A stretch of 36,501 bases of DNA from Deltaproteobacteria bacterium (GTDB lineage: Bacteria > Myxococcota_A > JAADFL01). Where the stretch lies: positions 1-36,501 of the forward strand of contig JAADFL010000010.1 in NCBI GenBank assembly GCA_013152945.1, read 5' to 3'. Below the pieces are notes generated by a model. That model did no database searches, was not told the DNA's origin, and saw only the letters and a program-made list of their open reading frames with translations. The first letter of the stretch is position 1; each line of letters starts with the position of its first letter. The translations under genes and the position numbers were made by a program. Positions 9,917-36,501 of the stretch are shown here, piece after piece.

Positions 9917-10042
9917 CAAGGCGCGCATAACACAAGGGGGCAGGCCCTGGGCCTGGGGCGTCCCGGGATTCGGGCTATACACGAAGTCGATAGAAACTCC
10001 CGCCGGAACAAGTAATTACCGATCCCAGCCGGTAAAATTGCC

Positions 10043-10753: not shown

Positions 10754-11004
10754 TACGCCCTCCGTGATGGCTGTGGCCCCATGGCCCCAGGCTTTTTTAA
10801 ATATGGTTAGCATTGGTATGGCTGTTGGTCAATGCAGATTCGGCTCGCATGTTTCGGCTTTTCGCATAATTGAAGAAATGACGATGGAAAATGTCTTGCC
10901 CGGGAAAATTATCGTACGAGAAAAAATGTGATGAGCGGACATCTGGGTGCGAAGCCGAAGAAACCAGACGCTTCACATATTAACAACCAGACACTCCCGT
11001 CGGC

Positions 11005-11034
11005 TTGACCCTTGTATGAGCGCTGTGCTAGTAA
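11005..11034 (+). promoter_or_regulatory. Putative tol operon promoter
   Basis: TTGACC (11005-11010), 18-nt spacer, TAGTAA (11029-11034) preceded by an extended -10 TGC. The -10 match is weak, but this is the best candidate upstream of tolQ. Confidence 0.35.
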
Positions 11035-11063
11035 ACAATTTACTATGATTGAATAGACAATAG

Positions 11064-11081
11064 GGGCTCACGACAGAGCCC
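11064..11081 (+). promoter_or_regulatory. Hairpin in the tolQ leader
   Basis: GGGCTC (11064-11069) pairs with GAGCCC (11076-11081) across a 6-nt loop, 3 nt before AAGGAG. It could modulate ribosome access to tolQ. There is no T-run, so it is not a terminator. Confidence 0.4.
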
Positions 11082-11102
11082 GTTAAGGAGTAAAAGAAGA
11101 TT

Positions 11103-11843
11103 ATGGTAGAGAGCACATGGCCGGTACTGCTGCTGATACCATCCGAGATCAGGACAGACGTGGTCAGCCTGGTAACTGGTTCAGGGACTGTTGTGTTCGG
11201 CGTGCTCATGTTACTCATCTTTTTCTCGGTTGCATGTTGGGCAATCATAGCATTCAAGTTCACGCAGGTACGAAGGGCCCATAAGGAATCGGCCCAGTTC
11301 TTGGAAATGTTCTGGCAATCAAGGAAGCTGGATACCATATACGAACAATCCGAGCGCCTCCGGAACAGCCCGGTGAGCGAGGTCTTCAGGGCAGGCTATA
11401 TCGAGCTGTCGAAACTGAGGAAAAGAAAGGGGGCTGCCCAGGGTGGAAACCAGGCTGATTCCATGCTTTTCGAAGAGAGCGGGCTGGAAAACGTGGAGCG
11501 GGCCATGAGAAGGGCCGCCAGTGCAGAGAGGACCCGGTTGGAGAGATTCGTGCCTTTTTTGGCGACTACAGGCAGTTCGGCGCCTTTCATCGGCCTGTTC
11601 GGCACGGTCTGGGGAATCATGGATGCCTTCCATAAGATTGGGACCCAGGGTGGAGCCAGCCTGCCTGTAGTGGCCCCCGGTATCTCCGAGGCATTGATCG
11701 CAACCGCCACCGGACTTGCGGCAGCCATTCCTGCTGTTATCGGTTATAATTACTATGTGGCCAAGCTCAAGGAACTCGACTCAGAGGTCGAGAACTTTGC
11801 TAATGATTTCTTGAACATCGTAAAACGGGTCTTTTTCAGGTAG
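11103..11843 (+). CDS. tolQ: TolQ inner-membrane proton channel subunit
   Basis: 246 residues, MotA/TolQ/ExbB family, normal length for TolQ. Three membrane segments are visible: about 31-53, 151-173 and 190-215; the second carries LATTGSSAPFIGLFGTVWGIMDAF, the conserved TolQ/ExbB channel region, and the third the GISEALIATATGLAAAIPAVIGYNY pattern. With TolR it forms the proton-driven motor that energises TolA for outer-membrane constriction. It is first in a tolQ-tolR-tolA-tolB cluster, 28 nt before tolR. The Shine-Dalgarno AAGGAG is 12 nt from the ATG, rather far. Confidence 0.95.
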   Translation: MVESTWPVLLLIPSEIRTDVVSLVTGSGTVVFGVLMLLIFFSVACWAIIAFKFTQVRRAHKESAQFLEMFWQSRKLDTIYEQSERLRNSPVSEVFRAGYIELSKLRKRKGAAQGGNQADSMLFEESGLENVERAMRRAASAERTRLERFVPFLATTGSSAPFIGLFGTVWGIMDAFHKIGTQGGASLPVVAPGISEALIATATGLAAAIPAVIGYNYYVAKLKELDSEVENFANDFLNIVKRVFFR

Positions 11844-11871
11844 GATCTGTTTTTGGAGGTTGGTGACGAGT

Positions 11872-12381
11872 ATGGGCATGACAGGCCCAAGCAAATCCAA
11901 TGGCGGAGTGATGTCCGAAATAAACGTCACTCCATTGGTGGATGTCATGCTGGTGCTGCTCATTATCTTTATGGTGACCGCGCCGTTGCTGAAACAGGGA
12001 GTAAAGGTGGATCTTCCCCGTGCAAGGGGAGAAGAGTTGAAGTCGGACAAGGAAATGCCCGCTCTCACCGTTACAAGGGACGGCAGATATTTTTTGGGCA
12101 AGTACGAGATTCCTGCAAAAGATCTCGAAGAAAAATTGGCTGGAAACGAAAGAATAAAACGAGAGAAGCGCGTAAACGTCTATTCAGACAGGGATGCACC
12201 GTACGGTACGGTGGCTGCGGCATTGGCCGCATTGCATAAGGCAGGTGTGGATCAGGTGGGCTTGGTGTTTGAAAATCTGAGTGTGCATATCACATCGAAA
12301 GGTCCCGAGTATATACCTGTGCCTAAGGATACCGGATCAAAAGGCGATAAACGCAAAAGCAAACCTGGAGTTTCTAAGTGA
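11872..12381 (+). CDS. tolR: TolR motor subunit (ExbD/TolR family)
   Basis: 169 residues from ATG 11872. GTG 11863 and TTG 11860 are in frame, but they sit only 3 and 0 nt from GGAGG, so the true start is uncertain by four codons. A single transmembrane helix follows EINVTPLVDVMLVLLIIFMV, with the essential channel Asp at position 24. The periplasmic part holds the ExbD/TolR beta-alpha domain with VNVYSDRDAPYGTV. The C-terminus ends in a lysine-rich tail. Its TGA overlaps the GTG start of tolA by 4 nt, so translation is coupled. Confidence 0.93.
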   Translation: MGMTGPSKSNGGVMSEINVTPLVDVMLVLLIIFMVTAPLLKQGVKVDLPRARGEELKSDKEMPALTVTRDGRYFLGKYEIPAKDLEEKLAGNERIKREKRVNVYSDRDAPYGTVAAALAALHKAGVDQVGLVFENLSVHITSKGPEYIPVPKDTGSKGDKRKSKPGVSK

Positions 12382-13178
12382 GAGGAGACAACGAGTTGGT
12401 CCGCCGCCGGATTTCCGGTGATGAGCGCGTACTAATGCGTATGCTTTTGTTTTCATTCGCAGTACATATCCTCGTTCTGGGCGGAATCGTGATAAAACAG
12501 CGCTTTTTAAATCGCCGCGGCTCGCAATTCGAAGAAAAGATCATGGCAGCCAGGCTCTTGAGGCTCGGTACTCCGCCACGCAAACTAAAGCACAGGGAAA
12601 TGCCCAGGAAAATCCCCAACCTGCCTGCAAAACGAAACGAGGCCCTGGTCCCTGGAAGCAAAAAATCCAGGCATATGGCCGAAATGACAACCCGGAGAAG
12701 GAACAACGATTATACAAGGGAAATGAACAAGGCTCTCGAGCGAATCAGGGCACAGGTGAAAACCGAGAACAACAGGGAATTGCCCGATAACCTCCCACCA
12801 ACGCCGGGCAGTCCCGATGGTGTCAAGGAAGGCGATGTGATTGATCCCAGGACCGTGAATGCAGTCAACACCTATGTTGCCAGAATCGGGATGGAGCTGC
12901 GTACAAAGGGAGGCTGGAACATTCCGTCAATAATACCGAAAGAAACCGCAAAGAACCTTTCAGTAACCATTTTGGTTATATTGGATGCCCAAGGCTACAT
13001 TCTCAAGAGAGAGCTGGTCAAATCCAGCGGCAACACGCTGTTCGACAATGCAGCCCTGTCAACAGTGTCCAATGTCAAGAAGGTATCTGCACCGCCGCCT
13101 GATTTACCGGATAAAATCAGAAAAGAGCTGCTTGATGAAGGACTGGAGGTCGAGTTCACCGGGGTAAGCTTGAGGTGA
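12378..13178 (+). CDS. tolA: TolA-like energy-transducing protein with TonB-type C-terminal domain
   Basis: 266 residues, starting at GTG 12378 in a GTGA overlap with tolR. A transmembrane anchor (about 19-38) is followed by a basic, proline-bearing stretch and short charged helix, then a TolA/TonB C-terminal domain (about 165-266) with YVARIGMELRTKGGWNIP, a VTILVILDAQGYI strand pair and DNAALSTVSN. It is much shorter than E. coli TolA (421 residues) because the long helical domain is reduced. Position between tolR and tolB supports TolA over TonB. Confidence 0.85.
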   Translation: MRGDNELVRRRISGDERVLMRMLLFSFAVHILVLGGIVIKQRFLNRRGSQFEEKIMAARLLRLGTPPRKLKHREMPRKIPNLPAKRNEALVPGSKKSRHMAEMTTRRRNNDYTREMNKALERIRAQVKTENNRELPDNLPPTPGSPDGVKEGDVIDPRTVNAVNTYVARIGMELRTKGGWNIPSIIPKETAKNLSVTILVILDAQGYILKRELVKSSGNTLFDNAALSTVSNVKKVSAPPPDLPDKIRKELLDEGLEVEFTGVSLR

Positions 13179-13194
13179 ACGGTAAGGGGTTCAA

Positions 13195-14532
13195 ATGAAG
13201 AATGTGGCGAAAGCCGGTCTGTTGACCGCAATTTTTTGTATGGTTCCTTGCCAGGGCATGGCAAGAATCAAGGTGGTGATAGACGACCCCAATTTCCAGC
13301 CCCTGCCTATAGCAATCCCGGACCCGGAGGCGGTAGGCAACAGTGCCAAGGGAAAATCCGTTGTCATCGAGGCCGGGAGGGTTTTGAGGGATGACTTCGA
13401 TTTGTCCGATTTTTTTAAAGTCATTCCACCTGCCGCGTACCTGGTTAAAAAAGGTTCGCACATGCTGAAGGCCGGGGATATTGATTTCGGCGCATGGTTC
13501 GAGGTAGGTGCCCAAGCCCTGATTGGAGGATCCATCCACTTTATGGCTCGTGGAAAAATGGAACTCGAGTTAAAGCTTTTCGAGGTGGCCAGAGGGGAAG
13601 AAGTGCTCCACGCCCGTTATAACGGGCCTATAAAAATGGTTTCCAGGTACCTGCACAGGTTTGCGGACAGGGTCGTTAAACGCCTGACCGGTGAAAGAGG
13701 AGCCTTTGCAACCAGGATAGTATGTGCAAGAAAGATAAAAGGCATCAAGCAGATATACGTCATGGATGCAGATGGTAGACACGGGCGGGCCCTTACACAC
13801 AACAGAACCATCAATATTCTTCCCACATGGGCGCCGGACGGCATAACCGTATATTTCACCTCGTACATGAGACACAATCCCGATTTATGGAAGGTAGCAA
13901 TTTCAGGGGGCAAACCTGTGCCCGTGTCCGAGTACAGGGGATTGAACGTGGGGGCATCCTTGTCTCCGGATGGCAACTGGATTGCCCTGACACTATCGAA
14001 GGACGGCAACTCCGAGATATACAAGATGCACCCGGACGGTTCGGGTATGCACAGGCTGACCAATTCATTGGGAATAGACTCGAGCCCGGCCTGGTCGCCG
14101 GATGGAACCAAAATAGCATTTGTTAGTTCCAGGAGCGGTAATCCCCATATCTATTTGATGAACGCCGATGGCTCGAACCAGACAAGACTTACCTTTGTGG
14201 GAACGTACAACCAGACCCCGGCATGGTCACCGAAAGGAGACAAGGTGGCCTTTACTGCAAGGGATGAGAGAAACGTTTTCGATTTATTCGTCATTGACCT
14301 TGAAACCAAGGAAATAAAACGGCTGACCCAGGACCAGGGTAATAATGAGAACCCCTCGTGGGCTCCAAACGGCAGGTTTTTGACCTTTGCATCCAGTCGC
14401 GAGGGAATATACAAGATATATGTCATGGATGAAGACGGCTCGAATCAGAGAAAAATTTCCAGGGGTACTGGAAGTTTCACTACCCCGGAATGGTCTCCCT
14501 GGACAAAGGAGCCGTATGCCGGTCTGCCCTAG
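13195..14532 (+). CDS. tolB: TolB periplasmic beta-propeller protein
   Basis: 445 residues. Signal peptide about 1-22 (cleavage after GMA), an N-terminal TolB-N domain (about 25-165), then a WD40-like propeller with repeated PD40 motifs such as SPDGNWIALT, SPAWSPDGTKIAFVSSRSG and IYVMDEDGSNQRKIS. TolB links TolA, Pal and outer-membrane proteins. ATG lies 16 nt after tolA. No pal follows, which is unusual for a tol cluster. Confidence 0.95.
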   Translation: MKNVAKAGLLTAIFCMVPCQGMARIKVVIDDPNFQPLPIAIPDPEAVGNSAKGKSVVIEAGRVLRDDFDLSDFFKVIPPAAYLVKKGSHMLKAGDIDFGAWFEVGAQALIGGSIHFMARGKMELELKLFEVARGEEVLHARYNGPIKMVSRYLHRFADRVVKRLTGERGAFATRIVCARKIKGIKQIYVMDADGRHGRALTHNRTINILPTWAPDGITVYFTSYMRHNPDLWKVAISGGKPVPVSEYRGLNVGASLSPDGNWIALTLSKDGNSEIYKMHPDGSGMHRLTNSLGIDSSPAWSPDGTKIAFVSSRSGNPHIYLMNADGSNQTRLTFVGTYNQTPAWSPKGDKVAFTARDERNVFDLFVIDLETKEIKRLTQDQGNNENPSWAPNGRFLTFASSREGIYKIYVMDEDGSNQRKISRGTGSFTTPEWSPWTKEPYAGLP

Positions 14533-17573: not shown

Positions 17574-20525
17574 CTAAAATACCCCGATCGAGAAATGGAA
17601 TGCGCCTACAGGTTCGCCCAGTTCTTTGCGCCTATCGAGGTTGAAACCGTAATCAAAGGCAATAGGTCCAACAGGCGTTGAGTAGCGCAAGCCGAGACCC
17701 GCAGCATATCTTACCTTGATCAAATCACCTGGTTGAGGGTTTAACCAGAGATTGCCCGCATCCATGAATAAAGCCAATTCGAACCCCCAAAACAAGGATT
17801 TACGTAGTTCCACTTTGAATGTAAAAAATGAATTGCCTCCTTCGGAACGCTCCATATTTCTGGATTTGATTTCCTCTACGGATAGATCCGCCGGGTAGAG
17901 AGTCTTTTCCGGCAATGACCGCAAATCAGATCTTCCTCCAAGGAAGAAACGCTCCTGAACCGGTGTGGGGTTGGTCCTTGAAAAATTCTTTATCGCACCA
18001 ATCCTGATGGAAACGGCCATCCTCAACCTGCCCGGTCTGTATATCGGAAAATACCCGCTCAACATGATATCGCCTTTGAGCAAATTCACGTCTATATCCT
18101 TGTTCAGTTCCGGCAATGAACGTTTGTATTCGCAGCTCAGGCTGGCTAAAAAACCGAGCATGGGATCGAATCTGTCATCACGCAAATCAAGCACGATATG
18201 GCCTCTCGGCCCATAGGACCAAGATATTCCCTCCGGCGGGATATCCCCGCCCCCCCTTGTTCCCGCGGCCAATTCGACATCGTCATAAGTAAACTCGAAT
18301 TCGAGAATGCCTGTGATACGATCCATTGGATCAGTGAAAGCAGAGATGCTGAACCTTTGTTCGTCCAGGCCGTAAGCTGGATGGTTTTCCCTCTTCAAGA
18401 GACTGATATCTCCACGTATGCCCAACTGGAACTGCCTGGTGACCAATAGGTATGGATAGCTGACTGATAGGTTGATGTCTCTCTCAAGTCTGTCTTTGAC
18501 AGGCAATTGGTCGAGGAATTCCTGGAACTGTGGGTCGAGAAAATAAACCATCGGATAATTGGCCCTGGCTGACGTCATGGCCCGGATTCCCCTTCCTGCC
18601 AGGTTCCTTCTTTCGAATGAAGATCGAACAGACGGTCCTTTCTCGGAACTTATTCCACCTGCAACTTCAAATACCGAACCAGGGGCTTCGCGTACTTCGA
18701 CGACTATTTTCTTTATGGCTTGTCTCGCCTTGTCTTCAAAGGGTTCGATGATTACTTCTGTAAAGAGGCCGGTCCGGATCAACCGTTGCCTGCTCTCCTT
18801 GAGGGCATCTCTGGTCAGTAGGTCTCCGGGCCGGATCGTCATGCGATCCTTGATCAAGGATGATCGTATTTCGTAGTTGCCCCTAACCATGATCTCGCCG
18901 ACCTTCGTTAACGGCCCCGCTTCGACTTTAAAAATGAGAATCGTCGAGTCGCCCTGTTTTTTTTCGGTTTTTTTTACGTCACAATAATAATATCCCATTA
19001 AGCGGCATTGGGACAATATTTGCTTAAGTGACTTATCCACCTTCCATGGATTCAAGCCGCCCCCGGGTTTCAACACCAGATTTTTTTTCAACTCATTAAT
19101 GCTGCCGGGTTGCGGCCAACCCTGGATAACAAGGCCGGCTATTATTGTTCTAGGCCCTTCGTGAATCGGAATCTTGATTGTCAAATTCGTTCCGTTTTTC
19201 GAAAATACCAACTTGTAACGGCCTATCGATGATGACAGGTAACCCAGGGAACGGTAATAATTCACAACTTCTTCGAGACCGTTTTTAAACGTATCTTCGA
19301 CGTAGACATCCTTGCCGGACAGGGGTTTTCTAAAGCCGCCGGACCTGTCAAAGGCTTCTCCCAATAGACGCTCCCTTGCCAACAAATCCGGATCGACCGG
19401 TTGATAGAGAATCGGGCGGGAATTCTCTTCCTCCATGACCGCCCTTAGGATCTTGTTGAGCTTGGAATCATTCACCGCCTTATTTCCAATAAAGTCGATC
19501 CGTTTGATTCGCACCCTTGGGCCTTCCTTTATATGGAACACCACTTTGGACAGATCCGGTGTATAGTTTATTCGTTCGCCAGTCACAATAGCATGAAAAT
19601 AACCCAATCTCTTATAATATTCCGTCAAGGACCCCGCCATCGCATCGATGACATCCTTTGTTATCATCTTTTCCGTGCGTGGTTTGAGCAGTTTTCTCAA
19701 GCGCGATGATGTTACTTCTTGATTTCCCTCGAATGTGAAGATTATTTTGGGTCCTGATTCAATCCTGAGTCTCACAAGAGCATGGATGTTTTTTCCATCC
19801 CTGTGTATCTCGATACCGGGATCACCGACCTGTGCATCGAACCTTCCCATGTCCTGGTAGAATTTCCTTATATTCTTTCTGTCTTCATCGAGCCTGTCCA
19901 GGTCGAGAATTCTCCCTTTTCTCGTATCCATCAAGTCGAGAATTTTTTTGAACTTCACCGCCGGATGGCCTGTCAACAGAATGCGACTTATAATCAATGG
20001 TTTTCCTTCGATTACTTTTATTTTAAGCAATATGCCTCCCCGGTCCTTTTCCGGTTCGAACAGAACTTTCGCATAGTGATACCCGGCACGTCGATAGGCG
20101 TACTGAACCGCATCAACCCTGTTTTCCACTTCATCGAGTAGGTAGTCATCCCCGGGCCTGACATGAAGGAGCCGACCGATTTTTGCGCTGGAGAACCTCT
20201 TATTTCCGGTAATATCGATTGCAACTATTTTGCGACGTGCCCTGCAATGGAAGGTAATGATCAATCCTTTATGGCCGGGTTTTGCCGTTGCTGTGATCTG
20301 GTCGAACAAGCCCAGTTGAAACAGCCTCTCCAATGTTCGCCTGACTTCTTTCATGGATAGAGGCTGGTTCTTCTTTACATCGATCAAGTCTTTAATCGTA
20401 TTTACATCGATACCGGCCGGAATGTCCAATATTACGCCTGATACTACAGGGCGGGAATTTGAAGCAAATATGCCGGGCTGGACCTGGATCATCAACATTG
20501 TCATCATGAGGCTGATGGAATTCAT
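17574..20525 (-). CDS. Omp85 protein with about seven POTRA domains (BamA/TamA-like)
   Basis: 983 residues. ATG at 20525 lies 1 nt after the TamB stop with GGGAG upstream. A signal peptide (about 1-21) is followed by seven POTRA-like units over roughly residues 25-600, each ending in EGP/EGK-type turns and containing the GxxxFxxxxx alpha-beta pattern. A 16-strand-type barrel follows (about 600-983), ending in Phe. BamA has five POTRAs and TamA three. The loop-6 motif, normally (V/I)RGF or RGY, reads GGRSDLRSLPE here, with Gly replaced by Ser. Genomic pairing with TamB suggests a TamA role, or BamA-type assembly. Convergent with the J-domain gene, 13 nt away. Confidence 0.9.
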   Translation of the reverse strand: MNSISLMMTMLMIQVQPGIFASNSRPVVSGVILDIPAGIDVNTIKDLIDVKKNQPLSMKEVRRTLERLFQLGLFDQITATAKPGHKGLIITFHCRARRKIVAIDITGNKRFSSAKIGRLLHVRPGDDYLLDEVENRVDAVQYAYRRAGYHYAKVLFEPEKDRGGILLKIKVIEGKPLIISRILLTGHPAVKFKKILDLMDTRKGRILDLDRLDEDRKNIRKFYQDMGRFDAQVGDPGIEIHRDGKNIHALVRLRIESGPKIIFTFEGNQEVTSSRLRKLLKPRTEKMITKDVIDAMAGSLTEYYKRLGYFHAIVTGERINYTPDLSKVVFHIKEGPRVRIKRIDFIGNKAVNDSKLNKILRAVMEEENSRPILYQPVDPDLLARERLLGEAFDRSGGFRKPLSGKDVYVEDTFKNGLEEVVNYYRSLGYLSSSIGRYKLVFSKNGTNLTIKIPIHEGPRTIIAGLVIQGWPQPGSINELKKNLVLKPGGGLNPWKVDKSLKQILSQCRLMGYYYCDVKKTEKKQGDSTILIFKVEAGPLTKVGEIMVRGNYEIRSSLIKDRMTIRPGDLLTRDALKESRQRLIRTGLFTEVIIEPFEDKARQAIKKIVVEVREAPGSVFEVAGGISSEKGPSVRSSFERRNLAGRGIRAMTSARANYPMVYFLDPQFQEFLDQLPVKDRLERDINLSVSYPYLLVTRQFQLGIRGDISLLKRENHPAYGLDEQRFSISAFTDPMDRITGILEFEFTYDDVELAAGTRGGGDIPPEGISWSYGPRGHIVLDLRDDRFDPMLGFLASLSCEYKRSLPELNKDIDVNLLKGDIMLSGYFPIYRPGRLRMAVSIRIGAIKNFSRTNPTPVQERFFLGGRSDLRSLPEKTLYPADLSVEEIKSRNMERSEGGNSFFTFKVELRKSLFWGFELALFMDAGNLWLNPQPGDLIKVRYAAGLGLRYSTPVGPIAFDYGFNLDRRKELGEPVGAFHFSIGVF

Positions 20526-20526
20526 A

Positions 20527-23500
20527 TTAGAACTCCCGCCTGTAACGAAGCTCCAAGCCGAAATTGCCACTTTGAAGAAGGTCGCTGTTCTCCCACTGCC
20601 CGAGCAAACCCAAACGGGGATTAAACCGGTATTCTATTTTCACCTTTTGATCTTTTGTATCTCCGACACCGGTCTCTATAGTCAGCAAAAGAGCATCAGT
20701 CAGTTGCTTGCCCACCTCCAAGTACGGAAGGAGGTATCCACCCTTTTCTCCCTTGGTCCAACCTGGGTAAAGCCTGAAAAAATCCAACTTAAGTGTTTCC
20801 CTGAGTTGTTCGTCCAGTCCTGTTATTTCCATGAGGGCGTCGGAAGTAATTTGTGAAAGGGCCTGTTCTGTACTTCCTTCCACATTGCCGCCAAGGTCTG
20901 TTGTCTTGACCCCGATAACAAATAATGAAAAAATATCTTCTTCGGGTAATGGAGGCTCGGATACGGCCCTCAATTCATACTTGTCAAGGTTACCCTGTAC
21001 TTTAAATTCCACATCGTAGTAGGAAGACTCGCCGTCACGTTCCTCCCCGGCCGGTTTGAAATCCTTTAGCCTGGTAGTCGCCCGAATATCGAACCAGGGG
21101 AATATCCTGCTCGGATCATTGAAATCGAGGTACATTTGCTTTATTTCCAACTCGTGTCTCTGGAGCCTAAGCCTTCCCCTTATCAAGTGCAGGGCTCCAA
21201 TAAGACCGACACTGTCGGTAGTACCACTAATAGTAACCTGGCCTCCCATCTCTATGTCGGCGATGTTGTTTTTTATCAGAATGTTATTTTCCGCATTTAA
21301 TCTGATTGCAAGCTTGATCCCGGCCTTTTTCTGATTGGACACAAAGGCCAATCTTTTTGGTTTGAACAACCTTTTAAGCCTGGGCACCAGGTCTTTCAAC
21401 CGAATGTCTTTTGAAAAACGCGCCCATAACAAATCCAAATCTCCTGAAAACTCGACCCTGTCTGAATCACCTTCCACCATGAATTCACCAGCCACTCTGG
21501 CTGGTAGATCGCTTGGAAAAGCCAGCGAGCAATCATCCAGTGTGCTTTGCAGATGAATCTTGAACGGCATGTAATCGATCTCGCCGCTCGTTGTGGTTCC
21601 TCCGCTTCCCAACCTTGCACGCACTTGATCTAAAACAACCCTTCTCGAACTTAACAAGACTCTACCGGTTGCTCCTTCCAGTAACGGAGGAAACCCCCTA
21701 AAGCCTATCTCGACGTTCTTCACCTTGGCTGTGATCAAGGGCTCGGGCTTGAAGAATCGGCCCCTGATAGTTCCCTTTAATATTGCTGTCCCGTCACTTT
21801 TAACAAACACCGATGGCACCAGGTGTTCCAGGAAGTTTGTTCCTATCTTGCCTTCCAGCGACAGATCCCAGCCTTTCTCTATAGACAGGTTGCCTGCCAA
21901 ATTGATTTGACCTGAAAGGGTCTTCAGTTTCAAATTGTCTATACGGACCATGCCTGATCCGATACGGCTCTTCATCTCGTCCACAAGGGCCAAATTAAGA
22001 ACTCCGAATTTGTTTTCGGACAAAGTCAGCTTTGCAAGGTCAACATGTCCTTCCCATTTTTTCGGTTTGGCCATTGGCCCGGACAGATCAAGCCGGCCGG
22101 TAACCGCCCCGGAAAATACAGATCCCTTTATCCTGTCCAGCTTGAAATCATTCAGCCTCAGAACGAGCCAAAACGGGTAATCACGGACCAATTCCACCTG
22201 GGAGGAAAAAGCCAACTTCCGTCCGGTCAGGTTGCCTTCCACGAGTAAGCGGCCATCACTCAATTTCCAGGTGAGTCTGGATGTTTTATCAGGCTTCATC
22301 GAATCGGCTAGTTTTACGTTTTTGAACTCAAAAACGCCGTTTCCCTCCGGCATATCGATATTCCCATGAATCCATGCCGATCCATTGATACGGCCCGAGC
22401 CTCCGGGCAATATAGATTTGAAGTATTGCAGTTTTTCCAGCCTGGCATTCTTTAGCCTGGCCGTGAGATCGAGTCCCCGAGTTTCTCCACTTATCATACC
22501 TGCAATTCGGACTCTTCCTCCGGCAAAAGACAACTCGGCCGTAGTGATCTCCAAATTTTGTCCATGGAGTCTTCCGGTAAGCCGGCCGTTCAAAGGGCCC
22601 TCCCCGGCCAGCTTGATGCCCTTTCCCTTCAAGCTGATTGTTCCAGACAGGTTATGCAAAGGGCCTTCTATTCCGACATTTCCCGCCAACAGGCCGTCCG
22701 GCTTCAGGACAGTAGCGATTTTTCGGGGTAAAAACTTGATGATGTCGCGAAGATGAAAATCTTCCCAGGCAAGGTCTACTTTTATCCTTGGCATCGAATC
22801 AATGATCGCGCCCAGTTTCAGTTCTACCTTGCTTTTGCCTGAAAGGATTTCACACCTTGGAAGGACCAATCGCCTGGTCTTGTAATCGAAAACAGCTTCT
22901 CCCGTCAAGGCGACACTACCCAGCCGTCCAAGCAATAGCTTGTCGAAATTGTAGTCCACCCAGATTTTTGGTTGTCTCAAGGTACCGGCGCAAATGGCAT
23001 CGATTAGGCCTTTACCTTTAAGATCATTCCCTTTGGAGAGATACGGCAGGTCATGCAAATAGGGCAGGTCATGCAATGAAATGGAAGCGCCTTTTGTTTC
23101 CAGGTCAAGCTTGCCGTTCAGTCCTATAGTTCCTTTTATTGCGAGATTTGTTTCGTTGGTGGACAAAAGGATATTGTCGAAAGCGAAATGGTCATCCTCG
23201 AATTTGCCCTGTCCCCTTACGGCTATCTTGTGCATATGAAATCCTGATTCGTTTTTCAATTCATCGATTGAGAGGTTCATTGAAAAAACGGCTTTCATTG
23301 GGGATTTCAGATTCGATTTGATTGTCAGTTTTCCGTCAATATCTGCCTGTATACCATGCAAATCAGTAAGCAGCATTGCCATGAGACGGCTGAGTTTCAA
23401 ACGGTTGAACTTGAAAGTAGCTGTCATTTTATCGGAGTCTGACGTGTTTAGCACGGCTTCGGCCGAAAGAGTGTCCTTGGTTATGCTCGAAGTGATAGAA

Positions 23501-24504
23501 GTCAATTTTAGCTCGGATCCGCCATAATTGAAACGACCCCTGAAATCACCAATTGTCCCGGTTCCAATCGACACGTCCATAAGGTTGAAATCTCCAACCG
23601 CCTTGACTTTCAATGAATTCATTTTCACCTTGGCCGAGACAGCCAATTTTCCGCCCAATTTACGGTGTATGCCAAGCATCGATGCTGCTTCTGCCAGGGA
23701 AGTATGAAATATCAGATCCGCACTGGCCTCTTGGGTTGTCCTTGAATCAAATATTCCAGAGAAAAAAAGTGCTGTCTCTCCCATTACAATAGCTGCTTTT
23801 TCTATTTTGAACGTTGGGCCGCGAGAATGAAGGGTAATCCTGACTTTATCTATGTTTTCTTTGATATGGCCAAGGTGTAGGCGCCCATTTTTTGCTGATA
23901 AGTCTATATGGTATCCTTTTCCGGATCTTTCAGCATGGAGGGCGATATTACCAATGTCCAAAGAGTGCTGTTTGCCCAGGCCGAAAGTTGCACGGCCATC
24001 CTGGACCTCCAATTCGCCAATGCGGATTGCAGATCCATTTGTAAAATCAAGAAAGGGGATATGCTGATCAACTCCTTTGTTGTTGGAAATTTGTATCATC
24101 TCTTCGGCTTCGGACCTGGATTTCAAATATATGGCTAGGACGGGTGCTTGTAAGACGATTCTATCCGCAGATAGTGTGCCAAAGAACAATTGCAATGGCC
24201 GCAGCCACAGCTTAATTGATTTGACATAGAGGTTGAATCGCCCCTTTGGATCCTTGATTTTCAAAGTATTTATGTCAATCGATGATTCACTGATATCTAT
24301 ATCCAGTCCTGCAAGCGTACAGTCCGCTCCCAGTTTTTCGGTCAGCAACCGGGCCAATTCGGCACCAAGCCATTTGCCGACAGTCTGTGTTTCCAGAGAT
24401 GCTACGAGAATTCCCGCCAGCAGGGCGGCAATGAGGAAAAACAATACAGCCAGCCTTCTATGCAACGGCCGACCCTGCCACTTTTCAGTTTCCCGATCCT
24501 TCAC
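20527..24504 (-). CDS. tamB: TamB-family translocation and assembly protein
   Basis: 1325 residues. An N-terminal membrane anchor (about 17-39, RRLAVLFFLIAALLAGILVASL) precedes a very long repetitive beta-rich region of the AsmA/TamB kind, and the last ~350 residues match the DUF490/TamB C-terminal domain, ending in LELRYRREF. TamB forms a hydrophobic periplasmic groove that moves phospholipids and aids some autotransporters. GTG 24504 overlaps the TPR gene end by 20 nt; no Met is available for a later ATG start. Ends 1 nt before the Omp85 start, so the two are coupled. Confidence 0.92.
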   Translation of the reverse strand: MKDRETEKWQGRPLHRRLAVLFFLIAALLAGILVASLETQTVGKWLGAELARLLTEKLGADCTLAGLDIDISESSIDINTLKIKDPKGRFNLYVKSIKLWLRPLQLFFGTLSADRIVLQAPVLAIYLKSRSEAEEMIQISNNKGVDQHIPFLDFTNGSAIRIGELEVQDGRATFGLGKQHSLDIGNIALHAERSGKGYHIDLSAKNGRLHLGHIKENIDKVRITLHSRGPTFKIEKAAIVMGETALFFSGIFDSRTTQEASADLIFHTSLAEAASMLGIHRKLGGKLAVSAKVKMNSLKVKAVGDFNLMDVSIGTGTIGDFRGRFNYGGSELKLTSITSSITKDTLSAEAVLNTSDSDKMTATFKFNRLKLSRLMAMLLTDLHGIQADIDGKLTIKSNLKSPMKAVFSMNLSIDELKNESGFHMHKIAVRGQGKFEDDHFAFDNILLSTNETNLAIKGTIGLNGKLDLETKGASISLHDLPYLHDLPYLSKGNDLKGKGLIDAICAGTLRQPKIWVDYNFDKLLLGRLGSVALTGEAVFDYKTRRLVLPRCEILSGKSKVELKLGAIIDSMPRIKVDLAWEDFHLRDIIKFLPRKIATVLKPDGLLAGNVGIEGPLHNLSGTISLKGKGIKLAGEGPLNGRLTGRLHGQNLEITTAELSFAGGRVRIAGMISGETRGLDLTARLKNARLEKLQYFKSILPGGSGRINGSAWIHGNIDMPEGNGVFEFKNVKLADSMKPDKTSRLTWKLSDGRLLVEGNLTGRKLAFSSQVELVRDYPFWLVLRLNDFKLDRIKGSVFSGAVTGRLDLSGPMAKPKKWEGHVDLAKLTLSENKFGVLNLALVDEMKSRIGSGMVRIDNLKLKTLSGQINLAGNLSIEKGWDLSLEGKIGTNFLEHLVPSVFVKSDGTAILKGTIRGRFFKPEPLITAKVKNVEIGFRGFPPLLEGATGRVLLSSRRVVLDQVRARLGSGGTTTSGEIDYMPFKIHLQSTLDDCSLAFPSDLPARVAGEFMVEGDSDRVEFSGDLDLLWARFSKDIRLKDLVPRLKRLFKPKRLAFVSNQKKAGIKLAIRLNAENNILIKNNIADIEMGGQVTISGTTDSVGLIGALHLIRGRLRLQRHELEIKQMYLDFNDPSRIFPWFDIRATTRLKDFKPAGEERDGESSYYDVEFKVQGNLDKYELRAVSEPPLPEEDIFSLFVIGVKTTDLGGNVEGSTEQALSQITSDALMEITGLDEQLRETLKLDFFRLYPGWTKGEKGGYLLPYLEVGKQLTDALLLTIETGVGDTKDQKVKIEYRFNPRLGLLGQWENSDLLQSGNFGLELRYRREF

Positions 24505-28624: not shown

Positions 28625-30088
28625 ATGATTGTGGTAAATTCCGGACTGAAACCTAAACTGATCATAGCCTTCCTCGTGCCGACTGCCGTTGCTGTATCCG
28701 CCTCGATAGTTGCAAGTTATTTGGAAGCGCAAAAATCCCTGGAATCGGAACTTGGTGAGCGCCTGATGGTTGCAGCCGGTAGTGCCGCCGCCGCTCTTTC
28801 AGACGATCTTGTATATGATTTTGCTCCCGGCGACCAGGATACAAGAATGTATAAGAGGACGCTTCGAAGATTGATTGATCTGAAGAATGCTACACACACC
28901 GCCCGGTTGTTTGCTTTTTCTCCGGGCATGAAGGCTCTTGTCGATACCGATCCGAACGTGGAACCGGGAGACGTTCTCTATCGACTGGAAAGAGATAAGG
29001 TGGAAATTCATCTGGCTCTCGAGGGAAAGCAAGTCTCTTCTTTCCTGTTCCGCGGCAAGGATGGAAATTTATATAAGACCGGATACGCGCCAATATTTAA
29101 TCGGGAAAAGAAAGTCCTTGCAGTTCTTGGCGCCGATGGTTCAACAGCCTATTTCACGGCTCTTTCGAATCTTTGGAAACACATGGCCGTCGTAGGAGCT
29201 GTTGTCAGCCTGTTGGCCGTATTGACGGGACTATTCGTTGCCTCTAGATTGATTCGTCCGATACAGAACCTGGTAATTGCTGCAAAGTCGATAGGGTCGG
29301 GTGACCTTGAACAAAGGATCGAAATCAAAGGCGGCGACGAGATTGCATTTCTAGGCAAGACCCTGGAAGAGATGAGAATGGAATTGCTCGAGCGGGACCG
29401 GAGAATGCAAATGATGCTCGCCGGAATAGCACACGAAATCAGAAATCCCCTGGGAGGGATGGAACTTTTCCTCGGCATCCTGGGCGAGGAGCTTGAATCC
29501 TCGCCTGAACTGCTCAAGCACCTGGAAAAGGTCAGGAACGAATTGTCCTCTCTATCGAGGATAGTAAATGACTTTCTGGGATATGCCAGACCTGTCAGGC
29601 TGTCGCGGAAAAAGTTCGATTTACAAGAGCTGCTGAATGAAGTCAAAGAACTCATGAGAAAAGAAGCAGCGGAGAAAGAAGTGAAACTCGATATTGAAAA
29701 GAATGATACGTCCTTGGTCACGGCTGATCAGGATCTTCTCAAGAGGGCGATTTTGAACCTCGTGAAAAATGCTATACAGGCAGTGCCTTCGAAGGGAAAC
29801 GTGACTCTTTCCGCAAGGCTTGAAGATGGCGAATATTATGAAATCGATGTTACGGATGATGGTATCGGCATGGACGTAACAGTCTTGGAGAAAGCGACAG
29901 AGGCATTTTTCACCACCAAGCCCAGGGGCTCCGGTCTCGGCCTGGCCTTGGCCGCCAAGATCGCCGAAGAACACGGCGGCCGCCTCATCCTGAGGAGCTC
30001 TCGCAGCCGTGGGACAAGGGCTACGATAAGAATTCCAAGTAAGCAGTCGGGTAACATTGATTCCAGGTCGTTGGAGGCCCAAGAATGA
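28625..30088 (+). CDS. Membrane sensor histidine kinase (NtrC-partner type)
   Basis: 487 residues from ATG 28625; a TTG at 28613 is in frame. TM1 (about 11-32), a periplasmic sensor (about 33-182), TM2 (about 187-207), HAMP, HisKA with GIAHEIRNPLGGM (phospho-acceptor His270), and HATPase_c with NLVKNAIQAV, DDGIGM and GSGLGLALA. The sensor ligand is unknown. TGA overlaps the regulator ATG by 4 nt. No Shine-Dalgarno is seen before ATG 28625, and TATAAT lies just upstream (28616-28621), so the start or mRNA 5' end is odd. Confidence 0.92.
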   Translation: MIVVNSGLKPKLIIAFLVPTAVAVSASIVASYLEAQKSLESELGERLMVAAGSAAAALSDDLVYDFAPGDQDTRMYKRTLRRLIDLKNATHTARLFAFSPGMKALVDTDPNVEPGDVLYRLERDKVEIHLALEGKQVSSFLFRGKDGNLYKTGYAPIFNREKKVLAVLGADGSTAYFTALSNLWKHMAVVGAVVSLLAVLTGLFVASRLIRPIQNLVIAAKSIGSGDLEQRIEIKGGDEIAFLGKTLEEMRMELLERDRRMQMMLAGIAHEIRNPLGGMELFLGILGEELESSPELLKHLEKVRNELSSLSRIVNDFLGYARPVRLSRKKFDLQELLNEVKELMRKEAAEKEVKLDIEKNDTSLVTADQDLLKRAILNLVKNAIQAVPSKGNVTLSARLEDGEYYEIDVTDDGIGMDVTVLEKATEAFFTTKPRGSGLGLALAAKIAEEHGGRLILRSSRSRGTRATIRIPSKQSGNIDSRSLEAQE

Positions 30089-31491
30089 GTAAGATTCTCG
30101 TGGTAGAGGACAATGAAACGATGAGAACGGGTATGGTAACGGTAGCCGCCAGGCTGGGACATGAGGCCATGGAAGCTTGTGATGGTGTATCAGGGATTTC
30201 CGTAGCAAGGTCCTTTAAGCCGGATCTGGTGTTGACCGACCTCAAGCTGGGAGACGTGGACGGCATAGAAGTGCTACGAAAAACAAAAGAAATGAACCAG
30301 AATTGTCAGGTCATAATAGTAACCGCCCATGGCACTGTTGAGTCTGCTGTCGAAGCAATGAGGCTTGGTGCATTTGATTTTGTAGAAAAACCGTTTGGCC
30401 CGAAACTCCTGAAAGCAAAGATCGACAAGGCACTTGAAGTCGTTGAAGTCAAGGCAAAGGCGAACAGGCTCGAAGAGGAAAATGAAGCCCTTAGGGCGGA
30501 ATTTTCACTACCCCCGGACCTTGAAGAACTGGTTGGAAAATCCGAAGCCATGAACAAGGTTTTTCGGGCCATAGGCAAGGTTGCTCCTACTGATACGACC
30601 GTCCTTTTGACAGGTGAGAGTGGAACAGGAAAGGAGCTTGTTGCAAAGGCTATTCACTCGAGAAGCAAGAGGGCGGACAAGGTCTTGGTCAAGGTGAGCT
30701 GTGGCGCGATTCCGGAAAACCTCATCGAAAGCGAGTTGTTCGGTCACGAGAAAGGAGCATTTACAGGGGCGATAAGGCGAAAAATGGGACGATTCGAATT
30801 GGCACACAAAGGGACCCTGTTCCTCGATGAAATAGGAGAATTACCCAAGCCGCTGCAAGTCAAATTGTTGAGAGTGCTCCAGGAAAGAGAATTCGAGCGG
30901 GTCGGTGGTGAAGATACGTTGAGGGTGGATGTCAGACTGATTGCCGCTACAAACAGGAATCTTAATCTGGATGTCAAGGAAGGAAGATTCAGGGAAGACT
31001 TGTTCTATCGACTGAATGTAGTACCTATTGAACTGCCTCCCTTGCGGGTTCGAACCGGGGATATACAGGCCCTTGCCCATCATTTCATCGAAAAGCTGCA
31101 AGTGAGAACCGGTGGCAAGGCTGTTAAAATCGATCCCCATGCACTGGATATGCTGGAAACCTATTCCTGGCCGGGCAATGTAAGGGAATTGGAGAATACG
31201 ATTGAAAGAGCGATGGTATTTTGCGAAGGGGACACGATAAGGACAAGTGATCTTCCACCGTCGATTGCCGGCTCCAGCCTGCCGACACATACGGCGACAA
31301 GGGAGAATAACCGGGAATCTTCCCCTCATCTTGGAGAAAAGCCCCTACCAGAACTTTTGGAAGAAGTCGAACGTAACATGATTTTGCAGGCATATGAAAA
31401 ATCGAATGGCATAAAGGCTGAAGCAGCCAGGGTACTGGGTGTGAAGGTAAGTGCATTGTACTATAAGTTGCAGAAATATGGGATTGAGTAG
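30085..31491 (+). CDS. NtrC-family sigma-54-dependent response regulator
   Basis: 468 residues. Receiver domain (1-120) with phospho-acceptor Asp52 (LVLTDLKLGD) and Lys102; AAA+ sigma-54 activator domain with Walker A GESGTGKE (177-184) and the GAFTGA sigma-54 contact (224-229); Fis-type helix-turn-helix at the end (AEAARVLGVKVSALYYKLQ). It should be phosphorylated by the kinase that overlaps it and open sigma-54 promoters. A candidate target promoter lies 12 nt past its stop codon. Confidence 0.95.
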   Translation: MSKILVVEDNETMRTGMVTVAARLGHEAMEACDGVSGISVARSFKPDLVLTDLKLGDVDGIEVLRKTKEMNQNCQVIIVTAHGTVESAVEAMRLGAFDFVEKPFGPKLLKAKIDKALEVVEVKAKANRLEEENEALRAEFSLPPDLEELVGKSEAMNKVFRAIGKVAPTDTTVLLTGESGTGKELVAKAIHSRSKRADKVLVKVSCGAIPENLIESELFGHEKGAFTGAIRRKMGRFELAHKGTLFLDEIGELPKPLQVKLLRVLQEREFERVGGEDTLRVDVRLIAATNRNLNLDVKEGRFREDLFYRLNVVPIELPPLRVRTGDIQALAHHFIEKLQVRTGGKAVKIDPHALDMLETYSWPGNVRELENTIERAMVFCEGDTIRTSDLPPSIAGSSLPTHTATRENNRESSPHLGEKPLPELLEEVERNMILQAYEKSNGIKAEAARVLGVKVSALYYKLQKYGIE

Positions 31492-31502
31492 AAGGCCGAA
31501 TG

Positions 31503-31516
31503 GGCATGAAATATGC
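31503..31516 (+). promoter_or_regulatory. Sigma-54-like promoter element (-24/-12)
   Basis: GGCATG at 31503-31508 and ATGC at 31513-31516 give GG and GC spaced by exactly 10 nt and match most of the TGGCAY-N-TTGC consensus; the leading T and one T of the -12 are replaced. The expected start is about 31527, close to the second possible ATG (31531) of the next gene. A chance match is possible. Confidence 0.35.
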
Positions 31517-32577
31517 ATAAAAAATTGTACATGAAATTTCGATGGGTTATAGCCATTGTAGTACTATTTACAATGCCGGCCGTAGGCAATACCCACGAAT
31601 TAAACACCTTGAGCCGGGACATGGCTTCACTAGAAGATTTGTACAATAACCTTGTTAGAGAGTCCAGGCATCTCAAAACTCGCCTTCAGGACCTGGCAAC
31701 AAAAATTGGACGACTAAAATCAGGCTATATAACGAGGAGCGCAAAACAAGACCTGGCGAATTTCTTGGCCGAGTCCCAGGAGGTCTCCATTCGATTGGAA
31801 GCGGTTTCCAAAAGGCTCAAGGCGGCCCGTAAGGCTTTGAATGAAACCAGAAGAGAGATGGTCATGGCTCTGGATTCAAAGATGTCAAAGCTGGAAAAAA
31901 TCCTTCTACAAAAAGGCCAGGGGGCACCGGACAAAGAGCAAATGCTTGCCGAGTTGATCAGGCTGCAAAAGACCAGGAATAGATTACTGAAATCCATGAA
32001 GGTCCAGACACCTCCTGGTCATGTATATTTGGAAGTCGATCCCCTGGATGGCCCCAAGGAGCTTAGGCGCAAGGCATCCTTTTTGAAGGAAAGGGCCGGG
32101 AAACTCAAAAAATTCGCATGGGAACTCGAAGAAAGAAAAAAAATTGTCGCCCGTTCGATACGTCTTGAGGGAAAGCTTAGGGATGTAGCCGAGGGGGAGG
32201 CGCTTTTCGATGAATCACGAAGCTGCCTGGGTGGGCCTCAAAGCGGCATTGGACAGAGGGGACGGGAAAATGCTATCGGATCCGGCAATAATATGAGCAA
32301 AAATACGAATGAAGGCCCATCAGCTCATACCGGTGACATGGCTTCCGATGGCGGGCTGTCCGGATACGGGCAAGAAAAGCCTGCCGAATCACGAAGTACT
32401 GGCGTCAAGCTGGAAGACATGTATGCAAAAGATTCGATTGGCTCGAGCAAGGTCATGTGGAACGATGTCGAGTGGCTTGAGAACAAGCGGCAAGAGGCAC
32501 TGAAAGAGGCTAGAGAATTGGAGTTAAAGGCCAAGGCGATAATTGAGCAAGCCGAGGCCCTGGAGAAAACCGATTGA
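31513..32577 (+). CDS. Exported coiled-coil protein, family unknown
   Basis: 354 residues. Signal peptide about 1-25 from either ATG 31513 or ATG 31531; neither has a clear Shine-Dalgarno. Mature part: long heptad coiled coil (about 30-115), a second charged coil (about 175-225), a Gly/Ser-rich disordered stretch (about 235-300) and a C-terminal helix (about 325-352). Likely periplasmic. Its TGA overlaps the next TTG start by 4 nt. I do not recognise the family; context ties it to the OM barrel and lipoprotein that follow. Confidence 0.75.
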   Translation: MHKKLYMKFRWVIAIVVLFTMPAVGNTHELNTLSRDMASLEDLYNNLVRESRHLKTRLQDLATKIGRLKSGYITRSAKQDLANFLAESQEVSIRLEAVSKRLKAARKALNETRREMVMALDSKMSKLEKILLQKGQGAPDKEQMLAELIRLQKTRNRLLKSMKVQTPPGHVYLEVDPLDGPKELRRKASFLKERAGKLKKFAWELEERKKIVARSIRLEGKLRDVAEGEALFDESRSCLGGPQSGIGQRGRENAIGSGNNMSKNTNEGPSAHTGDMASDGGLSGYGQEKPAESRSTGVKLEDMYAKDSIGSSKVMWNDVEWLENKRQEALKEARELELKAKAIIEQAEALEKTD

Positions 32578-33743
32578 CAAATCGATTCGTTTTCAGTGTT
32601 CCGATTCGGACAGAACATCTTCGTGCGGTAATCTTGCTGTTGATACCATTATTTTCCACACATCCGTGCCGGGCATCCGACCGCCCGGAACACGTGCATC
32701 TCGCTCTCAAGGCATCCCTTTCATCCTTGTATGACTCAAATGTCCACAGGGCGTACAGGATCGATAATGAAAACAAAACGATGTACACGGACAAGGTGTC
32801 AGGCGATGTTGCAGCCAGGATGATACTTCAGGGACTTGCGTCTTTCCGGACTTCGACGAGCCTGCGCGGCAATCTCGCTTACACGGTCGGATTTAAAAAA
32901 TTCGCAAGATTCACGGATGAAGACGTTCTTGTGAACAAGCTTGAGGCAGGTGTCTGGGCAAACCTGGGAACAAGGTCTGTCATGGGGCTGTACGGGTCTT
33001 TCAAGGACAAGGATCAACGTGGCAGGGAAGAGGTTTCTTCCCGTCTGCCTGGTGCGAGGGATTACAGGAGAGGTGGTGCTGGTATCAGAGCAACGACATT
33101 CGCGGGACCTCTGAGATTCAACATAGGTGCCGGTTACTCTTTCCTGGACCACAAGCCCAGGGAATTCACCCCGTACTCCAACCAGTCATACACGATAAGT
33201 TTCGAAAGCATATACCTGCTTGCAAAGGGTGAATTCAGAATCAAGGCAGGCTACTATTTCAGCCGGTTGTTTTACAAGGGAATGGCATACACTGAAAAGG
33301 GCAATACAATATCGGAAATGTCTGTCCACAGAAAGGACAGTCTCCACGTCCTTGAAGCGTCCACTGCATGGCATGGACCGTTGCTGATCGAGGTCGGTTA
33401 CAGGTTTTGGCTCAATCAGTCAAACTCGGCAGGTGAAACCTTTCAGGCACACAGTGTGCGCCTGACCCTGTCCGCAGACCTGTTCGCCAATGTGGGTGCA
33501 AGGCTCATATGCAATTTGAAGTTGAAGAAACTGGTCGATGGTTTCTATCTGTCGGGCGTGCTTCCCCTGGCGGAAGAAGATGAAAACCAAAATAGTGTGC
33601 TGGCCGTCTTGGATACTGATCTCTCCGACGACATTTCAGTAGAGTTGGGTTTTGCCTATTATGGTAACGAACTCTCCAAGGGAGGGTATTCTTTTTCCAG
33701 GAGCTTGGCTTTCCTGTCCATGACAGGTAAGTGGGGAAACTGA
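32574..33743 (+). CDS. Predicted outer-membrane beta-barrel protein
   Basis: 389 residues from TTG 32574, overlapping the previous stop by 4 nt. A signal peptide (about 1-35, cleavage after CRA) precedes alternating amphipathic strands throughout, e.g. RFNIGAGYSFLDH, YTISFESIYLLAKGEFRIKAGYYFSRLFYK and DISVELGFAYYG, as in OM barrels. Possibly a porin-like, DUF-type or surface-secretion barrel; no name assigned. Shares its last base with the first base of the following lipoprotein start. Confidence 0.7.
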   Translation: MTNRFVFSVPIRTEHLRAVILLLIPLFSTHPCRASDRPEHVHLALKASLSSLYDSNVHRAYRIDNENKTMYTDKVSGDVAARMILQGLASFRTSTSLRGNLAYTVGFKKFARFTDEDVLVNKLEAGVWANLGTRSVMGLYGSFKDKDQRGREEVSSRLPGARDYRRGGAGIRATTFAGPLRFNIGAGYSFLDHKPREFTPYSNQSYTISFESIYLLAKGEFRIKAGYYFSRLFYKGMAYTEKGNTISEMSVHRKDSLHVLEASTAWHGPLLIEVGYRFWLNQSNSAGETFQAHSVRLTLSADLFANVGARLICNLKLKKLVDGFYLSGVLPLAEEDENQNSVLAVLDTDLSDDISVELGFAYYGNELSKGGYSFSRSLAFLSMTGKWGN

Positions 33744-35200
33744 TGAAGAGCATTTTGTTTATGCTGTTTATGCTCGTTATGCTTGCCGTTTTTGCGGGAT
33801 GTGGAACCAACCCGGGTACAAAGGGCCCCTACTTGGTGGATCAACAACTTGCACGAATCGACTTTGTCGAACACCCTTCTGCATTGGAGCAGGGGGACCC
33901 CCTGACTTTGACAATAGGCCTTTCCATGGATGAAAGATGTTCGCAGATAGGCAGCGTTCAAACGAACATCCTGGATCTCGAAAGCAAGAGTGGACAGGAA
34001 CAAACAGCTATGTTGAAGGTCCAAGTGCGGCTGAATAGACTTTTTTCGTGCGATCAGGAGCAAAATGTTGACCTGGTTTTCACCCATGATGTTGTAAACC
34101 TGTTGCCCGGTAACTACTTGATCGAGGTAAATAATCAGGACTTCGGCGTGGTTCGCGTCGGTCTGCTCGAAGGAGACTCGGATTCAGATGCGGACGCGGA
34201 TACGGATACGGATTCCGATACTGATACCGATTCGAATGATGCAGGAGAAATATGCAGGAAAGCGGTTTCGGCAGACCTGGAATACATAGACGTGCCCTCA
34301 TCCTGGCCGCTTGAAGAGGATGCACCGGTCAGGATGTGGATTTCCGCTGAAAGGCCTTGCACAAGAGTCAAGGAGATAAATGAAAAATTTTCAGGCACGC
34401 GATTGGATTTGTCTGTTACCACATGCAGACTCAAGTCATGTACGGGCATACGGGGGTACGATTTTATTCAGCATGATATCCGGTTTCCGGGAAACGGAGA
34501 ATACGCTGCCTATTTCGGCGGCGAACTTTTTGGGAATATCAGCATAGCCGCTCGTTCATCATGTCGAAAACAAGACGCGGTGATACTTGCAGGGGCGGGA
34601 CCTGGTGTCTTCAGAGTCGGCGAGCCGCTGAGCATACTCCTTACTGCTCAATTACCGGGACCAAAATGGGTCGTTCATGAACTGCAAACCCGAACGATTG
34701 GAAACAGGACGATTCAATTGGGCATTTCCGCAATCGACTGTGGCAAGGATCTCAAAGAAGAACCGGCGACCGTACAATCACTACAGCAGGTAAAAGGGCT
34801 TAAAGAGGGCAGATGGTTCCTGCTCGCGGGTCAAAGCACGCTGGAAGTTATCGGCTATGCAAGAGGTCAGGGAGCAAACGATCTCATTCTCAATGATGAT
34901 ATAGGGGAATTGATTGTCCAGAACAGAGAAAAAACCGCCATGAGTCATGGCATGTTGGAAGTAGTCGCTCTCGGCAAGCTGCCGGAGGGATGCTTTGAAC
35001 CGCCTGGTTCCCAGGTTTACATCGATCGTGTATCCAGGGAAATGCTTTTCGCCGTATGGTCCCGGCCGGCCCGGCCGGGGTTGTTGTGTGCGGGCAGGAA
35101 CTTTGTTGCATCAACAGCAGTCAACGGCCCGTTCGAGCCGGGGAATTGGAAGATAGTGGTATCAAAGGATCTCCAGGAAGAGATATCCATCGAACCATAG
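33743..35200 (+). CDS. Lipoprotein with Asp-Ser/Asp-Thr linker
   Basis: 485 residues from ATG 33743, which shares a base with the preceding TGA. Lipobox AVFAGC gives lipid-modified Cys20. Two similar halves, each starting with a beta-rich module holding a Cys pair and phrases such as PLTLTIGLSMDERCSQI and APVRMWISAERPCTRV, are split by a low-complexity acidic linker (about 145-164). A third part repeats the pattern (EPLSILLTAQLPG). It probably lies on the outer membrane and may cap or partner the barrel. Acidic linkers of this type are common in Myxococcota lipoproteins. No family recognised. Confidence 0.75.
   Translation: MKSILFMLFMLVMLAVFAGCGTNPGTKGPYLVDQQLARIDFVEHPSALEQGDPLTLTIGLSMDERCSQIGSVQTNILDLESKSGQEQTAMLKVQVRLNRLFSCDQEQNVDLVFTHDVVNLLPGNYLIEVNNQDFGVVRVGLLEGDSDSDADADTDTDSDTDTDSNDAGEICRKAVSADLEYIDVPSSWPLEEDAPVRMWISAERPCTRVKEINEKFSGTRLDLSVTTCRLKSCTGIRGYDFIQHDIRFPGNGEYAAYFGGELFGNISIAARSSCRKQDAVILAGAGPGVFRVGEPLSILLTAQLPGPKWVVHELQTRTIGNRTIQLGISAIDCGKDLKEEPATVQSLQQVKGLKEGRWFLLAGQSTLEVIGYARGQGANDLILNDDIGELIVQNREKTAMSHGMLEVVALGKLPEGCFEPPGSQVYIDRVSREMLFAVWSRPARPGLLCAGRNFVASTAVNGPFEPGNWKIVVSKDLQEEISIEP
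34175..34234 (+). repeat. Hexanucleotide repeat encoding the Asp-Ser/Asp-Thr linker
   Basis: Ten degenerate hexamers of the GAT-NCN kind encode ten Asp-(Ser/Ala/Thr) dipeptides. The run is in frame and gives the lipoprotein a flexible acidic spacer. Confidence 0.85.
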
Positions 35201-35448: not shown

Positions 35449-35480
35449 ACCCAAGATGGAAGCTCTCCGTGGAGGAAATA

Positions 35481-36197
35481 GTGGTGGAAAACGAACAGGA
35501 ACAAAGGGAATGTTGTGAAGAGCTTGAAAAACTGACATACAATATCTCTCACGACCTGCGAGCACCATTGAGGGCGATACAGGGTTTTGTCACGGCCTTG
35601 GTAGAGGACTATGAGGATATTCTTGATGAGACCGGTCAGGAGTTTTGCCGGAGAATAAAGAAGGCGTCGCAGGATCTGGATGGATTACTTGATGACCTAT
35701 TGGATTACAGCAGGATAGGGAGGCCGCCCATGGAGTCGGTTCCCACCGATCTCTCGGCTGTTCTCCATGTTGCCATGGCATCAATGGAGAAGGAGATCCT
35801 TGAAAGCAGGGCGCGGATAGATTTCCCTTCAGAAATGCCCGATGTTCAGGGTAATGCTCCTGTCCTCGTGGAGGTTACAAGGCGGATACTGTCAAATGCC
35901 TTGAAATTCGTCGATGATGGCACTACCCCCGTGGTCCTGATAACTTGTTCGAGAAAGGCCGGGAAGGTAAGGTTGGTATTCGAAGATAATGGACTTGGTG
36001 TCCCTGCTCATAAGCGTGGCGTTATTTTCGAGTTGTTCGAAAAGGCTCATGATATAAGGTTCGAGGGCAATGGTGTTGGTCTTGCTATTGCGAAGAAGGG
36101 CATTACCAGGTTGAATGGTTCAATAGGATTGGAACCGGCTCCTAAAAAAGGATCGAGATTCTGGATCGAATTGGATGAAGCAAAAGGAAATATCTAA
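35481..36197 (+). CDS. Soluble histidine kinase without a sensor domain
   Basis: 238 residues from GTG 35481; GGAGG at 35471-35475 rules out the GTG at 35469, and GTG 35484 is an equal option. HisKA with NISHDLRAPLRAIQGF (His24) and HATPase_c with NALKFVDDG, EDNGLGV and GNGVGLAIAKK. This HisKA form is that of bacteriophytochrome and related kinases, which normally carry sensor domains; none is present here. It overlaps the Rcp1-like regulator by 1 nt, the usual partner of that kinase type. Confidence 0.9.
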   Translation: MVENEQEQRECCEELEKLTYNISHDLRAPLRAIQGFVTALVEDYEDILDETGQEFCRRIKKASQDLDGLLDDLLDYSRIGRPPMESVPTDLSAVLHVAMASMEKEILESRARIDFPSEMPDVQGNAPVLVEVTRRILSNALKFVDDGTTPVVLITCSRKAGKVRLVFEDNGLGVPAHKRGVIFELFEKAHDIRFEGNGVGLAIAKKGITRLNGSIGLEPAPKKGSRFWIELDEAKGNI

Positions 36198-36501
36198 TGG
36201 AAATAGCCGGCCTTATGGATGCAGAAAAGATTATTTTGCTCGTGGAAGACAATTCCAACGATGTCTTGTTGATGAAGAGGGCTTTTAACAAGGCCAAACT
36301 GGTAAACCCGATAGTGGTGGCTTCGGATGGGCAGGAGGCTGTGGACTACCTGGAAGGAGCGGGCAAGTTCATGGGCAGGGACCGTGCGGAACTCCCGGTA
36401 TTGATGTTGTTGGACTTGAAACTACCCAAAAAGAACGGTCTCGAGGTTCTCGAATGGGTAAGGTCCAGGGAAGGGCTGAAGAGGCTGCCCGTGGTTGTTC
36501 T
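36197..36501 (+). CDS. Rcp1-like single-domain response regulator, cut by the window end
   Basis: At least 101 residues; the window ends inside the gene. ATG 36197 overlaps the kinase TAA; ATG 36215 is another choice. IILLVEDNSNDVLLMKRAF gives the acidic pocket, LLDLKLPKKNGLEVL the phospho-acceptor Asp73, and LPVVV the strand before the switch Thr/Ser. The NDV and ALxKAxL features fit the Rcp1 group, which pairs with phytochrome-type kinases. Confidence 0.9.
   Translation, partial: MEIAGLMDAEKIILLVEDNSNDVLLMKRAFNKAKLVNPIVVASDGQEAVDYLEGAGKFMGRDRAELPVLMLLDLKLPKKNGLEVLEWVRSREGLKRLPVVV

Follow-up and report, generated by a model that had tools for sequence, protein, structure and literature searches.

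The question raised by this locus is whether a two-component pair and the three envelope proteins encoded behind it make up one regulated system and, if so, what such a system might do. The five ORFs lie on the + strand at positions 28625-35200 of the window (by which we mean the whole 36,501-nucleotide stretch of DNA analysed) and correspond to a membrane sensor histidine kinase (HK, 28625-30088), an NtrC-type sigma-54 activator (RR, 30085-31491), a coiled-coil protein predicted to be exported to the periplasm (CC, 31531-32577), a predicted porin-like outer-membrane barrel (BAR, 32574-33743) and a putative lipoprotein with the lipobox VFAGC (LIP, 33743-35200). The first-pass annotation had described five same-strand genes overlapping at three of the four junctions (by 4, 4 and 1 nt), and this layout was confirmed, the overlaps falling between HK and RR (4 nt, ATGA), CC and BAR (4 nt, TTGA, with TTG as the start of BAR) and BAR and LIP (1 nt, TGATG, with ATG as the start of LIP). 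HK starts at the ATG at 28625, in a reading frame that is open from a TTG at 28613. The sole correction concerns CC, for which the listed start was 31513; an in-frame ATG at 31531 opens a good signal peptide and is the more likely start, since a sigma-54-type promoter (31502-31517) overlaps the listed one. At the loci of relatives, genes were called with a composition-scored caller together with stop-to-stop frames (greedy longest-ORF calling misread the GC-rich loci).

The order HK-RR-CC-BAR was found in the window (family f1) and in families f20 (L009), f44 (L044, L046 and L051; L047 is cut and shows RR-CC-BAR), f17 (L057; L121 has an insert between HK and RR), f25 (L126) and f27 (L130, with 2 kb separating RR and CC). 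As it recurs in other families, the arrangement is not due to chance. In f19 and f54, CC and BAR are adjacent and HK and RR are not next door, and in f7 and f33 CC and BAR are found at separate places. Profile searches covering 282 genomes of the host phylum recovered BAR in 44 and CC in 41 of them at strong E-values, and the RR ortholog was present in 43 (E 1e-125 or better, a count that leaves out the weakest match, G068). All three were found in 37 of the 282 genomes and at least one of them in 46, a shared presence that extends to genomes where the genes lie apart. Each pairwise co-occurrence (BAR-CC, BAR-RR and CC-RR) gave a Fisher p < 1e-37 over these 282 genomes, values that overstate independence because the genomes are related to each other. 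One f44 BAR query matched only itself and one Myxococcales MAG; the named records among the loci are a Proteobacteria MAG (L143) and a Myxococcales MAG (L144). Coiled-coil stretches of probable flagellins from f6 (L055 and L056), which a single-sequence search had matched to CC, were dropped because the CC profile did not recover the f6 genomes.

The earlier proposal of a five-gene unit stood for its first four members, found in this order in at least five other families, but not for LIP, which is absent from the conserved set. No Pfam family matched LIP above cut-off, and we found no relative of it beyond a low-complexity Asp/Ser/Thr linker; elsewhere the slot after BAR is occupied by other proteins, namely a PEGA-type protein, a CarboxypepD_reg lipoprotein or an f7 lipoprotein family. 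LIP is probably co-transcribed with BAR without being a conserved part, and would be a local addition. By these sequence comparisons, HK, RR, CC and BAR are a conserved four-part system, with LIP outside it.

The kinase carries an N-terminal sensor domain with HAMP, HisKA and HATPase_c domains (Pfam), and its sensor region gave a sub-threshold sCache_3_2 match in three relatives. RR has the Pfam domains Response_reg, Sigma54_activat and HTH_8, i.e., the receiver, the AAA+ domain with GAFTGA (present in the translation) and the Fis-type HTH of an NtrC-type regulator. These domains are the defining ones of NtrC/AtoC-type two-component systems, but RR is a distinct ortholog group within the phylum and has a palindrome and a target of its own. 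In the RR tree the window and 20 other loci form a clade apart from the paralogs (support 0.958), with the window RR as its deepest branch, and the genomes in which RR is unlinked to CC and BAR have a single ortholog 60-71% identical to the query, the next paralog being at ca. 48%. An HK ortholog precedes RR in L009, L044, L046, L051, L057, L126 and L130, and also at the f7 and f54 loci unlinked to CC and BAR.

A sigma-54 site of at least 10 bits was found upstream of CC in 28 of the 28 CC loci examined, from 10 families, with a chance expectation for each site of 0.01 to 0.04 in the stretch searched (the matrix was hand-written from the consensus, and controls were taken from the same loci). 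In the window, the -24/-12 promoter GGGCATGAAATATGCA (31502-31517, + strand) scored 11.5 bits, against 0.021 sites expected by chance over the 320 nt that were searched; its GG and GC elements are intact, it is otherwise weaker than those of the relatives, and its position is as in the 27 other CC loci. No site of at least 10 bits was found upstream of HK (five regions) or of BAR genes that stand apart (eight regions); the best reached 9.2. RpoN is encoded in the genome of the window. A palindrome with the consensus TCAGAAATCTGA lies 42-144 nt upstream of the sigma-54 promoter in most CC loci, including loci without a linked RR, and is likely the binding site of RR. The palindrome matrix was trained on f44 alone; in most of the other families, at most ca. 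2% of control windows matched its best site, which was weaker at three f19 loci (ca. 4% of control windows), and this matrix detected no palindrome before CC in the window or at the f33 locus. The DNA-binding segment of RR is near-invariant in the relatives and is changed in the window to GIKAEAARVLGVKVSALYYKL, which fits a palindrome site that has drifted. A search for palindrome plus promoter over 14 genomes returned two extra sites, one of them plausible. At L140 (G041), positions 1501-1620, a palindrome and a sigma-54 site precede a small ORF that may be one more target of RR. Envelope functions are already known to come under sigma-54 control (PMC3162934).

The first-pass annotation had supposed that the two-component pair sets the expression of the genes behind it; for CC and BAR this is very probably so, considering gene order, shared presence, the sigma-54 promoter and the upstream palindrome. 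From what is known of these protein families, HK would respond to a membrane or periplasmic signal by phosphorylating RR. The comparative evidence argues strongly that RR would then bind the upstream palindrome and activate the sigma-54 promoter just before CC, turning on CC and, where it is linked, BAR. We are highly confident of this regulatory half of the proposal. In f7, where BAR is separate from CC and lacks a sigma-54 site, BAR need not be co-regulated.

As for CC itself, the AF2 model has helices at residues 19-64, 69-128, 135-155, 175-231 and 295-347, with a disordered linker between the last two. No Pfam family matched above cut-off, no known fold matched the model at E 0.001, and PDB sequences gave short or coiled-coil matches only. 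In ZraPSR, a kinase and an NtrC-type regulator control a helical periplasmic protein through sigma-54, and the same logic is seen in HK, RR and CC. It could be that the locus is an envelope-stress circuit like ZraPSR or Cpx, with CC as a stress-induced periplasmic helical chaperone or a feedback inhibitor of HK, and BAR as a stress-induced porin or a client; the ZraR/AtoC and ZraS/AtoS models give RR and HK good scores, though below cut-off. However, the window CC matches none of the CpxP/Spy, ZraP and Skp Pfam families at E up to 1, and in its AF2 model it is longer and has another layout. Besides, BAR comes after CC in most families, and ZraPSR is not known to have a barrel partner. We consider a stress circuit of this kind unlikely.

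The AF2 model of BAR has 16 strands and a signal peptide (pLDDT 86.7, pTM 0.81), the helix of the latter being all that precedes the barrel. General porins, whose 16-stranded barrel BAR is predicted to share, occupy the top fold rows (VIA-align Z ca. 19, many tied), and fold matches include DcaP (6eus, Z 19.1) and OmpM1 (8bys, Z 18.3). We take BAR as a predicted outer-membrane barrel on this model, the fold matches and profile hits. By sequence, the window BAR matches no curated porin family, nor any Pfam family above cut-off; weak matches to BBP2_2, OMP_b-brl or Porin_4 were seen for a few of its relatives. The last three proteins had at first seemed unfamiliar, and HMM and structure searches bore this out for CC and the window BAR, which belong to families without a name in Pfam, NCBIfam or the PDB, the fold of BAR being the porin-like one predicted. 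If the termini are placed on the periplasmic side, where porins have them, the polar residues of BAR that are best conserved are at the extracellular strand ends and loops, not at the periplasmic turns. As these residues are at the outer mouth of a porin-like barrel, BAR would most likely be a channel specific to one kind of solute.

A further reading is an exporting barrel, in which BAR would release cargo such as a polymer and CC would act as periplasmic adaptor. AlgE is among the Foldseek matches of BAR, eight of 39 BARs weakly match BBP2_2, and in one f17 genus (L053 and L059) HK-RR-CC is followed by apparent export genes, HlyD-like and ABC transporter-like, and by no BAR, with a TolC-type outer-membrane factor-like gene also present in L053 (all judged by eye from their N-termini). 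Against this, in the other families no genes for synthesis or inner-membrane export were recognised next to the module, and the top fold rows are general porins; an export conduit seems to us improbable.

By analogy, a barrel plus a coiled coil would be a workable design, as DcaP and OmpM show (PMC12338516, PMC10628300). The DcaP porin of Acinetobacter has a 16-stranded barrel and a periplasmic coiled coil, and is induced by its own substrate class (PMC12338516), but its coiled coil is on the barrel chain, whereas CC and BAR are separate genes. OmpM of Veillonella is a single chain, a porin barrel joined by a coiled-coil stalk to a wall-binding SLH domain (PMC10628300), and Pfam detected no SLH domain in either CC or BAR. 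We found no sequence relation to either protein. OmpM, with OmpM1 among the fold matches, would suggest a mechanical two-piece outer-membrane tether, CC being the stalk and BAR a mere anchor; yet no wall-binding domain was found in CC, and the conservation of BAR is at its outer face, which makes such a tether very improbable.

With slightly better than even confidence, we propose a system of four conserved parts under its own two-component control, in which a signal governs an outer-membrane channel and a separate coiled-coil protein of the periplasm is the partner of that channel. CC would work with BAR, whether as a stalk, as an adaptor or by helping its assembly. Fold, conservation and gene pairing suggest that BAR would be a selective channel with CC as its partner, a reading that we hold at a little under even confidence. 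More speculatively, CC and BAR might form a two-piece, signal-switched stalked channel across periplasm and outer membrane, a connection or conduit not described before, with its own NtrC-type pair in several families; we find this rather doubtful. The absence of the palindrome and the weak promoter in the window, and the export-like genes that replace BAR in one f17 genus, count against the preferred explanation. A search of literature titles and abstracts found no description of the HK-RR-CC-BAR set. What emerges is a four-part envelope regulon defined from sequence alone and common to many members of the phylum, for which the regulator and its binding site, the promoter and both targets are predicted. 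A sensing circuit in a little-studied group becomes directly testable, and the regulon could show how these bacteria control outer-membrane traffic.

Other genes of note were seen in the window. Downstream of LIP (35469-36501) there is a second histidine kinase and an apparent response-regulator gene that runs off the contig end. Tol-Pal-like genes, with OmpA-family, MotA/TolQ/ExbB, ExbD/TolR, TonB C-terminal and TolB N-terminal domains, are located at 7912-14532, and at 17574-24504 an Omp85 protein with POTRA repeats adjoins a TamB-domain protein, forming a TAM-like pair.
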